Shown here in pieces: positions 5,755 through 45,428 of a DNA stretch of 45,428 nt; positions within the stretch are counted from its first letter, which is position 1; each line of letters begins with the position of its first letter. The DNA is from Ignavibacteria bacterium. GTDB taxonomy: Bacteria; Bacteroidota; Ignavibacteria; Tepidaquicellales; OLB5. Location of the stretch: assembly GCA_014879675.1 (NCBI GenBank), contig JACSRQ010000096.1:1-45428 (forward strand), given 5' to 3'. The translations under genes were made by a program, and so were the position numbers. Under the pieces are notes generated by a model. That model did no database searches and was not told the DNA's origin. It saw only the letters and a program-made list of their open reading frames with translations.

Positions 5755-6243
5755 CGTTAAACCGTTGAAACGGTTTTGGGCTCCCGGGTGAAATCTAATC
5801 CCACGGATGAATCCGTGGGCTGAAACAAATTGTAAATCCGGTCGCCTGACCGGATTGCAGCGCGCGTGAATTGCATGCTCTTGGTTTTCACCTTATGAAA
5901 GTTCGCGCATGCACTCGAATCAGGCGATTCGAGTTACAGGTTTTAGCCCCGAAGGGGCGGAATATTTTAGCGATGGGCGCAGCCCATCGTGAAAGGAACG
6001 CGATTTGATAAGCCGCGAAGCGGTGCGATACTCTTATTGCAAATCAGAAGCATCCTCTCGCAAAGGCGCCAAGACGCAAAGTAATATTATTGCATTCCCA
6101 AACTGGAGTTTGGGAATGAGAAAAAAGAAACGCAGAGTCCTCCTTCGGAAAGACTCTGCTGAAACGAACCAAATTATCCATACCCCTGCCCTATGATTCA
6201 ATTAAAAAATTCGCCATATTCGGCTTCAACTCATGGAATTTGC
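5755..6243. repeat. Composite palindromic repeat block, copy 1
   Basis: A non-coding mosaic filling the gap before paralogue A. In order: a GTTGAAACGGTTTT hairpin; TCCCACGGATGAATCCGTGGG; CCGGTCGCCTGACCGG; CTCGAATCAGGCGATTCGAG; AGCCCCGAAGGGGCGG with GATGGGCGCAGCCCATC (5945-5990); ATTCCCAAACTGGAGTTTGG (6094-6117); and a CGCAGAGTCC/GACTCTGC hairpin. It ends in a shared linker containing CCCCTGCCCTATGATTCAAT. A second copy in the same order is at 7785-8526, on the other side of paralogue A. Confidence 0.85.
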
Positions 6244-12093: not shown

Positions 12094-12750
12094 ATAGAAT
12101 TTCTGAAGTTAGTTATATATAAAAACCTGCGGCGTTACAGATATGTTTCAAACGTGAAACGGCAAAACTTTCAGGAAGCGAAAGTCAGGCGTGAAAGCTT
12201 TTAGCCCCGAAGGGGCGGGATATGTCAGCGATGGGCGCAGCCCATCGTGTGCAGAAGCAATTATGATAAGCCACGAAGTGGCGAAATACAATTCATGTTC
12301 GGTCAGAGATAACCCTTTGGCAATCTCCTAAACATACTCATTGATGCTATGTGTGACCGCACGCGGTCATGTATCTCCTTAGTTTCCCGTACTTTCCAGA
12401 GTCTCTGCGCCAGCAGGACTATGGAAAATGTGATAACCTACACGCAGAGTCCTCCTGCGGAGAGACTCTGCTATTACGATTGTTTTTAATCCGTCCCGAA
12501 ATCATAGAGCTCTCAGCCCCGAAGGGGCGGGATATGTCAGCGATGGGCGCAGCCCATCTGCAGAAGACACAACAAATACAATGCCCTGAAAGGGCGGGAT
12601 ATATTATTATTGCATTCCCAAACTGGAGTTTGGGAATGAGGAGGAATACACGCAGAGTCCTCCTGCGGAGAGACTCTGCTGAAACATTAATCAGCCCCGA
12701 AGGGACGGGATATATTAGCGATGGGCGCAGCACATCTTGTGCAGAAGCTA
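12094..12750. repeat. Cluster of palindromic repeats (three copies of the AGCCCCGAAGGGGC module)
   Basis: Non-coding. Holds AGCCCCGAAGGGGCGGGATA with the GATGGGCGCAGCCCATC half at 12203-12247, 12515-12558 and 12693-12737 (last copy mutated), ATTCCCAAACTGGAGTTTGG at 12614-12637, and two CGCAGAGTCCTCCTGCGG / GACTCTGC hairpins at 12443-12472 and 12651-12681. GTGACCGCACGCGGTCA near 12352 is a further palindrome. Reading frames across this stretch arise from the repeats and are not counted as genes. Confidence 0.8.
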
Positions 12751-43886: not shown

Positions 43887-44100
43887 ATACGTGAAACGTC
43901 AAACGTGAAAGGTCAAACGTGAAATGTCAAACGTCAAAGGTGAAAACTTCCATAAAGCAGAAGTCAGGCGTGGAACGTGAAAGTTTCAGCCCCAACGGGG
44001 CGTAATACGTTAGCGACGGACGCAGCCCATCAGGAGGATCATTTCCCCCTATCAGGGGGAACACAAGGGGTTAATTTCATTCACATTCACAGCCCCGAAG
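43887..44100. repeat. Degenerate tandem tract and palindromic repeats before the IS element
   Basis: GTGAAACGTCAAACGTGAAA and variants repeat with ~10-base spacing (43890-43960). Then a degenerate AGCCCC-AAC-GGGGC module with GACGGACGCAGCCCATC (43988-44031), a CCCCCTATCAGGGGG hairpin (44045-44059), and AGCCCCGAAG (44091-44100), the left half of a repeat cut by the IS110 element. Confidence 0.75.
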
Positions 44101-44140
44101 GTACTGTGTTAAAAAGCAACTGTAAAACACATCGTATGTT

Positions 44141-45148
44141 TTAAATTGTTTTGTAATTAGGTATGTATTCTGCATCATGCTTCCATAAAGTATAGATCAA
44201 TAATAGAAGTTTTCTCATGATCGCTATTACTGCTATTTTTTTAATGTTCTTTCTTATTACAAGTCTAATGTAAATTTCTTTTAGCTTTTCATTGTGCTTA
44301 GCTGCAGATAGTGCTGGCATGTACAGAGCTTTCCTTAAAAAGTTATTGCCTTTTTTAGATATTCGTGTTTTACCTGTTTTGTAACCTGATTGATTGTGAA
44401 CAATATCTATACCGGCGTAACTTGTAAGCTGTTTACCGCTTTCAATGAGCTCAAAGCCATTGGTTTCGGCAAGTATTGTTACAATTGTCATTAAGCCAAC
44501 ACCTTCAATCTTTTGTATATTATTTATTTTAGTATATAGATCAGCATCCTGTTTTATAAGCTCTTTAATTTGATTTTGTATCTCTTTGAGCTGCTTATTA
44601 TATAATTTAATCTGTTCCTTAATACGCTTTAGTGTTTCCGGAGCAGGTTTGTACGAATGTTCCTTAGCATGCACCCTGTTTTTGGCCTGGGCCGCTTGTG
44701 ATTTGATATTAGTATACTCCCTGGTTAGTTCTTTTAGTTTTTTGAATAAATTGTCTGGTTTTCGCCACTTTCTGAGGGTCTTTTCAAGTCCGAATAATGT
44801 AATTGCATAAGCATCAAGGTTATCAGTTTTTGATTTGTTATCAAGTGTTCTCATATAGCTTTTGATCTTATTAGGAAGCAACACAGTAAGATCAAAATCT
44901 TTGTCTGCCAGAAAATGAGCTAGGTTTTCATAATAAACACCGGTAGCTTCCATGACGAACCAAACCGATAGATTACTATCTGCATGTTTGTTGACCCAGG
45001 TTAACAGAGCTTTAAAACCTGCCGGATTATTTTTAAAGCTTGCAGCAGAAGAAATGTTGTGTCTAAGTTCAGTATTAAGGCTGCCAAAACATGCGACAAG
45101 TTCATCTTTTGAAACATCAATGCCAACGGCTTGTTTTAGTGTTTGCAT
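44141..45148 (-). CDS. IS110-family DEDD transposase/recombinase
   Basis: 335 residues, full length for the family. N-terminal RuvC-like domain: D11 in AVGIDVSKDE, E67 in VMEATGVYYENL, D109 and D112 in KTDNLDAYAI form the DEDD site. A long coiled coil (~125-205) follows. The C-terminal Transposase_20-type domain has IEGVGLMTIVTILAE, LTSYAGIDIV, then QSG with S254 as the likely nucleophile, and ISKKGNNFLRKALYMPAL. Such recombinases use a bridge RNA to pair donor and target. The frame is intact, so the element may be active. Confidence 0.95.
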   Translation of the reverse strand: MQTLKQAVGIDVSKDELVACFGSLNTELRHNISSAASFKNNPAGFKALLTWVNKHADSNLSVWFVMEATGVYYENLAHFLADKDFDLTVLLPNKIKSYMRTLDNKSKTDNLDAYAITLFGLEKTLRKWRKPDNLFKKLKELTREYTNIKSQAAQAKNRVHAKEHSYKPAPETLKRIKEQIKLYNKQLKEIQNQIKELIKQDADLYTKINNIQKIEGVGLMTIVTILAETNGFELIESGKQLTSYAGIDIVHNQSGYKTGKTRISKKGNNFLRKALYMPALSAAKHNEKLKEIYIRLVIRKNIKKIAVIAIMRKLLLLIYTLWKHDAEYIPNYKTI

Positions 45149-45184
45149 AATAATAATTAATCAGATATTTTTAAATGACAGCTT

Positions 45185-45390
45185 AAAAAGATGGCAATGC
45201 TTCCAGTGCAACTTAACTCGTAACGTTATCCAGGATTGCCTAAAACGCATCCTTAAGTACTGTACAGTTTCTAAGAAGCAGAAAGTAATGGGGAGTGTAA
45301 CCTTCGGAACGGTATCGCATTCGCATACCAAGGGGCGAATCGCTCTCCCATTACTTTTGCCATACTAACTAAACTTACTCATTTAAACTT
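45185..45390 (-). ncRNA. Putative IS110 bridge RNA
   Basis: Read on the minus strand. Target loop: outer stem AAAGTAATGGG/CCCATTACTTT (45347-45357, 45282-45292), inner stem GGTAT/ATACC (45325-45329, 45311-45315). Its 5' side has CGCCCCTT (45330-45337) and its 3' side CCGAAGG (45301-45307), matching opposite strands of the repeat target CGCCC-CT-TCGG. Donor loop: outer stem TGCTTC/GAAGCA (45275-45280, 45198-45203), inner stem AGGATGC/GCAATCCT (45247-45253, 45232-45239). Its 5' side has ACAGTACTT (45255-45263) like the right end ACAGTAC-CT, and its 3' side TACGAG (45217-45222), complementary to the left end CT-CGTA. GGCAAT/ATTGCC then TTTTT may end it. Exact ends are estimates. Confidence 0.75.
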
Positions 45391-45391
45391 C

Positions 45392-45423
45392 AGATTACAA
45401 ACATACGAGATTACAAACATACG
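45392..45423. repeat. Duplicated 16-bp left terminus of the IS110 element
   Basis: Two perfect tandem copies of AGATTACAAACATACG. On the minus strand each contains TATGTTTG (45414-45421 and 45398-45405), an exact -7 promoter element, so the pair probably drives the bridge RNA and transposase. Confidence 0.85.
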
Positions 45424-45428
45424 AGGGG

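Follow-up and report, generated by a model that had tools for sequence, protein, structure and literature searches.

The bridge-RNA mechanism of IS110-group insertion sequences is already known, having been discovered recently. IS621 in E. coli is described in the available text of PMC11208160 as inserted in a REP-like repeat and as having a promoter across its joined ends, and the same text remarks on diverse structures in other IS110s. A junction promoter is also described for ISEc21 in the available text of PMC11187229. The structures of IS621 suggest, in the accessible part of PMC11208158, that the target loop and the donor loop belong to two separate RNA molecules. What appears to be new in the clade described here is a helix that closes the RNA around both loops, together with the lack of a consistent 5' stem-loop.

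The window is the whole stretch of DNA that was analysed, 45,428 nucleotides from an Ignavibacteria bacterium. Judged by its ends, its protein and its non-coding sequence, 44099-45425 of the minus strand corresponds to an IS110-group insertion sequence, and an RNA with two guide loops lies in its left end. The best explanation of the whole, to which we give a probability of about 0.93, is that this left end encodes a bridge RNA that would guide insertion of the element.

The element and its transposase

44099-45425, minus strand: whole IS110-group element, both CT cores included (ends placed from sequence; left junction with two flanks, in contigs C31 and C30)
44141-45148, minus strand: transposase/recombinase of 335 amino acids (Pfam and PDB matches and residue alignment)
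44099-44107, minus strand: left donor and core ACAGTAC-CT, at the right end (identical or with 1-2-base variants in relatives)
45416-45425, minus strand: core and right donor CT-CGTATGTT (includes the -10 box TATGTT, 45416-45421)
45392-45423, minus strand: exact left-end tandem duplication of 16 bp (at both left junctions, C31 and C30)
44114-44119, minus strand: -35 box TTGCTT (at a spacing of 17 bases from TATGTT in the circular form with joined ends only)
44090-44098, minus strand: right flank TCGGGGCTG, right half of a split REP-like repeat (likeness to other copies stops about here)

These outer coordinates had been proposed in a first-pass annotation of the same DNA and are right, with CT cores at both ends (45425-45424 on the left, 44100-44099 on the right) and the transposase between them. 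The protein has the RuvC-like DEDD domain and the Transposase_20 domain with a catalytic serine that mark the IS110 group of the IS621 type (Pfam DEDD_Tnp_IS110, 4.7e-28; Transposase_20, 4.3e-22). It matches the recombinases of ISCro4 (6.3e-31) and IS621 (3.8e-27) in the PDB, and its aligned catalytic residues are D11, E67, D109, D112 and S264, the roles of these positions being those given in the accessible part of PMC11208158. Also as in the IS110 group, a structured RNA lies in a long left end and the right end is short (277 and 42 non-coding bases, cores counted in both), and the CT core is common to target and donor at both ends.

A promoter is predicted across the joined ends, another feature of the IS110 group: TTGACT, TTGCTT or similar is followed after 17 bases by TATGTT or a variant. 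A TTG box at the right spacing was found by script in 11 of 13 elements; in L049 the script anchored on the wrong TAT and TTGGAT fits by eye, and L081, a broken copy, has no junction-promoter fit.

Insertion site

The window ends three bases beyond the element (CCC, 45426-45428). The source genome, when searched, yielded two further contigs, C31 and C30, that share their terminal 69 bases with this end of the window, the flank CCC included. The left junction reads TATCTCGCCC-CT-CGTATG in C31 (flank CTCGCCC-CT) and ATATCACCC-CT-CGTATG in C30 (flank ATCACCC-CT), while the right junction, in the window, reads ACAGTAC-CT-TCGGGGCTG, with TCGG at 44098-44095. The source genome has one assembled copy of the transposase gene and its search found no second right end, so C30 could be a second copy, strain variation or an assembly fault.

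The C31 left flank joined to the window's right flank gives a repeat with matches at 39 places in the genome, its own halves accounting for two of them; the joined flanks rebuild this REP-like palindromic repeat, and the element thus lies inside it. In 31 repeat copies from 20 fetched places, compared without allowing for gaps, each of the 15 positions of CGCCC-CT-TCGGGGCT agrees in 24 to 31 copies, and A at target position 4, as in C30, is found in five of these copies. Only one place in the genome, in C190, retains the 12-mer TCGCCCCTTCGG unchanged. Copies of the REP-like repeat also occur elsewhere in the window (5947-5959, 12205-12217, 12517-12529 and 12695-12707; three exact and one with a mismatch), with dozens genome-wide. 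An empty site corresponding to C30 was not found in the genus, where matches stop at base 573 (in one genome 668) of 732. Matches to the C31 flank in other genus genomes stop at base 521 of 708, except for 40 bases in G005 that match the repeat itself.

The element could be dead and its bridge RNA a fossil, which is unlikely but deserves some weight; this is compatible with the best explanation, as the element would once have worked in that way. The 16-bp duplication in the left end, the single gene copy and the lack of any match to the transposase at E<=1e-40 in the 12 remaining genomes examined in this genus are all in keeping with an element that no longer moves. However, the open reading frame and the aligned catalytic residues are intact, and the doubled left end is seen with two different flanks, which suggests that the element has been mobile with the duplication in place. 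As both known left junctions carry the duplication, the outer CT of the doubled end is apparently the one in use; no matching left donor or left target stands beside the inner CT.

Guides in the two loops

45179-45376, minus strand: bridge RNA body with closing helix (fold and covariance match at 45190-45365, the window being a training sequence; ends predicted)
45282-45358, minus strand: target-binding module, comprising the outer helix, internal loop 1 and the hairpin 45311-45329 (helices 1 and 2 covary in eight sequences)
45331-45339, minus strand: left target guide UUCGCCCCU, positions 1-9, on the 5' side of loop 1
45302-45307, minus strand: right target guide CCGAAG, reverse complement of CT-TCGG (a U45308.G wobble extends the pairing)
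45300-45301, minus strand: handshake guide GU, which complements C and A at donor positions 7 and 6
45199-45279, minus strand: donor-binding module (helices 3-5)
45255-45263, minus strand: left donor guide ACAGUACUU, equal to the right end ACAGTAC, the core C read as U (U.G wobble)
45217-45222, minus strand: right donor guide UACGAG, reverse complement of the left end CT-CGTA

The minus strand of the left end folds with two internal loops, as the first-pass annotation had described, and minimum free energy (MFE) z-scores are -3.89 for 45149-45400 and -2.54 for 45182-45365. The sides of loop 1 form a short 4-bp pairing in the MFE structure and are open in the centroid. The guides of loop 1 correspond to opposite strands of the target and those of loop 2 to the element's own ends, again as in the IS110 group.

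Some details of the earlier reading of these guides need adjustment. The 5' side of loop 1 had been equated with a target CGCCC-CT-T; the match exists by way of C31, but that flank is absent from the window, which stops after CCC. UUCGCCCCU agrees with CTCGCCC-CT of C31 in eight of its nine bases, position 1 being a U.G wobble, and with ATCACCC-CT of C30 in seven of nine, with a G.T wobble at position 4. For the 3' side, given as CCGAAGG, CCGAAG does complement CT-TCGG, but the last G is a handshake position. The left donor guide matches ACAGTAC-CT as stated, except that the reported mismatch is a U.G wobble, and the reading of UACGAG on the 3' side of loop 2 as the reverse complement of CT-CGTA needs no change.

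Under the handshake rule, as set out in the accessible text of PMC11208158, the GU beside the right target guide fits the donor; the bases UU at the handshake positions of the donor loop show no pairing with the target CC. Both handshake positions fit in seven of 14 elements (the window, L045, L046, L054, L058 and, doubtfully, L052 and L081), and as the other seven misfit, no claim is made for the rule as a general feature.

In 5000 dinucleotide shuffles of the window RNA, the exact guide string occurred anywhere in 11 for the left target 8-mer, 234 for the right target 6-mer, 37 for the left donor 7-mer and 221 for the right donor 6-mer, while at least two of the four strings occurred together in nine. 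The right target and right donor 6-mers taken alone are weak; the evidential weight lies with permutation tests across the family.

Related elements and co-variation

Related elements were found by transposase search in the class and the phylum at 35-59% identity. Eight left ends, the window among them, were aligned with MAFFT (alignment A1) and used to train covariance model R1. In A1 the two-loop fold has 91.7% of cells paired, compared with 78.1% in shuffles and 42-48% when slid, and both sides have changed in 20 of 38 helix pairs. R1 was run on 13 distinct held-out elements, identical copies being counted once. It matches 11 of them at E<1e-9, though L051 in the donor half only; L060 is matched partially at 1.9e-4 and L059 not at all. 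Covariance folding of related left ends, which had been suggested as a check, thus indicates that the helices covary.

Genome matches to R1 number 21 of 391 in the class and 14 of 395 in the phylum, the source and training genomes included. The model also matches three Hymenobacter plasmid elements; it has no match to two IS621-type elements or to one Deinococcus element. Rfam gave no family at gathering score for 43900-45428, and a scan of viral contigs found none encoding a relative. A search of genome contigs gave three loci, one being the same element as L047. L040, a relative from the same class in an Ignavibacteriales metagenome assembly, is the same contig stretch as L047.

Some matches to the RNA lack a recognizable transposase nearby. 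Six of 33 rows (L074, L075, L078, L080, L082 and L093) have an RNA match and no transposase match by tblastn (E<=1e-3, about 1.5 kb downstream), four more rows being too short to judge; these six may be solo or truncated left ends. L055 has a tandem duplication in its left end (2625-2838, a 107-bp unit with the whole target loop, 95% identical).

If the loops are guides, each element's loops should follow its own flanks and ends. The 5' side of loop 1, scored by its best match to the seven bases left of the core, matches the element's own left flank at a mean of 5.79 of 7 and the flanks of other elements at 3.76 (n=28; 0 of 100,000 permutations). The 3' side matches the element's own right flank, core included, at 6.36 compared with 4.12 (n=14, the rows in which a right-end motif was found; 0 of 100,000). 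For the donor guides, the left scores 6.92 against its own end and 6.10 against others (n=13; 13 of 100,000) and the right 5.35 and 4.80 (n=26; 0 of 100,000), the gaps being small because donors are mostly alike. None of these permutations is corrected for relatedness of the elements. Where donors do vary, the guides vary with them: elements with ACAGTAT, GCAGTAC or ACAGAAT have own guides matching at six or seven of seven bases, and those with CTCCTA or CTCATA at five or six of six. The comparison of loop 1 with flanks at other insertion sites, also suggested in the first-pass annotation, therefore favours its reading; loops of relatives that ignore their flanks and termini, which it had named as contrary evidence, are the opposite of what is seen, as left and right target guides and left and right donor guides all follow.

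The fit is poor for the left target in L057 (3/7) and in L075, L077 and L041 (4/7), and for the right target in L081 (4/7) and L094 (5/7). Left ends were placed by donor motif and not by guide fit, while the end motifs were written after the sequences and some guide fits were known, and were widened to TATATT and TATCTT. The left-flank test omits five of 33 rows: L039, L058 and L086, with no left-end motif in reach, L082, at a contig edge, and L051, without a target loop. The outermost left end was used for L055 and the window; the window's left flank was set by hand as that of C31, and the C30 flank would score 5/7. L044, L046 and L084 have odd core readings (apparent one-base differences in loop length) and were scored uncorrected.

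Extra left-end bases in L047, L043 and L083 were considered and rejected, as the flanks are, by eye, 8-bp tandem repeats of the CTTTGTGC type; the second CT in these elements is therefore read as part of the target. Two elements in one genome, L041 and L042, share their donor guides and differ in target guide (GCGCGU in one, GCCCGU in the other) and in left flank (fit 4/7 and 5/7), which looks like natural retargeting. Of the five copies in genome G392 (L052 and L061-L064), three are flanked on the left by GGGCTGT and two by AGGCTGT, and all share the right flank CT-AAAAAGG; these flanks are close to the loop 1 spelling. In L052 and L062 the likeness extends further out into the flanks, which may belong to another repeat or IS.

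The RNA lies directly upstream of the transposase gene and could be taken for an ordinary structured leader or attenuator of its mRNA, the guide matches being coincidental or left-over repeat sequence, and the shuffle counts for the two 6-mers show how readily short matches arise. This is very improbable, since the guides track each element's own flanks and ends, and chance matches would not change with the insertion site.

The closing helix

45356-45376, minus strand: 5' strand of closing helix P1 (best core GUAUGGCA, 45358-45365; duplex of -16.2 kcal/mol with its own 3' strand)
45179-45198, minus strand: 3' strand of closing helix P1 (same duplex, and the permutation test)

P1 joins the segment immediately preceding loop 1 to the one immediately following loop 2. 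Two strands from the same element have a mean of -11.1 kcal/mol, compared with -5.7 for swapped pairs (n=27; 0 of 20,000 permutations, uncorrected for relatedness of elements), while controls shifted by 30 bases are null (16,527 and 7,631 of 20,000). At least five P1 pairs lie within the predicted fold in 25 of the 27 elements, the exceptions being L052 and L082. These tests omit six of 33 rows that are truncated or misaligned (L051, L080, L081, L083, L084 and L086). A P1-type duplex sought in two IS621-type elements against the start of the coding region gave -4.5 and -9.3 kcal/mol; the latter is within the P1 range, and the same bases form the 5' hairpin of that element at -13.9. One energy value is therefore not decisive, and the swap test is.

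A separate 5' stem-loop belongs to the IS621 architecture and does not define the family. No consistent hairpin was found upstream of loop 1 in the clade, though single rows such as L052 fold one. The IS621-type bispecific layout claimed for the window thus holds for the two loops and their order, target first and donor second, but the RNA is not arranged exactly as in IS621: the comparisons support a clade RNA in which a closing helix around both loops replaces the 5' stem-loop and which differs in this from IS621. Among the matches listed by a text search, no paper that mentions IS110 or bridge RNA contains terms for a closing helix, and the titles and abstract openings found by other searches describe none. 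Given this scope, and the remark on diverse structures in PMC11208160, the claim is limited to a difference from IS621 and is not one of first description.

Donor guides lack CT in the core register in 27 of 31 read (L052 corrected by eye), mostly having UU with a wobble. A tentative extension, which we consider somewhat less likely to be right than wrong, is that such "closed" bridge RNAs are Bacteroidota-wide, with both modules carried on one end-to-end helix in one molecule and with a donor guide that avoids CT. If true, the avoidance would prevent confusion of the bridge-RNA gene with a donor end. L082 (1482-1726), which has a left-end tandem duplication, may be a case of such confusion, with the register shifted by one base: its second left end adjoins, at ACAGTA-CT, the donor-guide sequence of the preceding copy.

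Proposed mechanism

In the element circle, the joined ends would form a promoter (TTGCTT, 17 bases, TATGTT) from which the left-end RNA is transcribed, and by analogy with IS621 the RNA would be bound by the DEDD/serine recombinase. Loop 1 would pair with both strands of the target CGCCC-CT-TCGG, within the REP-like repeat, and loop 2 with both strands of the joined ends of the element, ACAGTAC-CT-CGTA. The recombinase would then exchange strands at the common CT core, a step modelled on IS621, and insert the circle without target duplication. Transcription and complex formation are, like strand exchange, proposed from the likeness to IS621; the guides, the ends, the target site, their co-variation across the family and the RNA helices are read directly from the DNA, and the bridge-RNA reading is supported by them.

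An IS1111-group element is the least probable reading and can be set aside: an inverted copy of the left-end tip does stand directly behind the transposase stop (44126-44142; 9/10 bases, p=0.003) and another in L045 (p=0.002), but elements of that group carry long subterminal inverted repeats and have their guide RNA downstream of the gene, within a long right end, whereas here the RNA lies upstream, within the long left end, the right end is just 42 bases, and the inverted copy is unsupported in the other 11 of 13 elements tested. Significant in two of 13, long subterminal inverted repeats were rejected as a feature of the clade. With the ends joined, the inverted copy in the window would fold into a hairpin that spans the junction (computed as RNA, -14.6 kcal/mol).

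With the bridge-RNA reading, targeting in Ignavibacteria-like and other Bacteroidota elements appears to obey the rules of E. coli IS621, as far as DNA alone can tell, and the elements supply a set of natural pairs of guide and target. The closing helix poses the question of whether the target and donor loops are provided by two RNA molecules or by one closed RNA, and a compact closed RNA may matter for the engineering of bridge recombinases.

Comparison with known systems

The window element resembles IS621, in the available text of PMC11208160 and PMC11208158, in having a left-end RNA upstream of a DEDD/Tnp recombinase, a target loop followed by a donor loop, left and right target guides and left and right donor guides (LTG, RTG, LDG and RDG), a CT core, a junction promoter and a REP-like target. 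The donor end is ACAGTAT-CT in IS621 copy L134 and ACAGTAC-CT in the window element. The window clade differs in lacking a consistent 5' stem-loop and in having a closing helix round both loops, for which IS621 has no non-coding room, as its donor stem ends 0 bases before the ATG in both copies. The window RDG is a contiguous 6-mer, while split pairing is described for IS621 in the same text, and the core position of the window LDG is U (wobble). ISCro4 (PDB 9t56), compared by protein alone, is the closest solved recombinase by sequence (6.3e-31). The ISEc21 seekRNA has, in the available text of PMC11187229, a different target and a 74-nt seekRNA as its abundant RNA form; like the window RNA, it comes from an upstream non-coding region, has a junction promoter and has its bottom-strand match 5' of its top-strand match.
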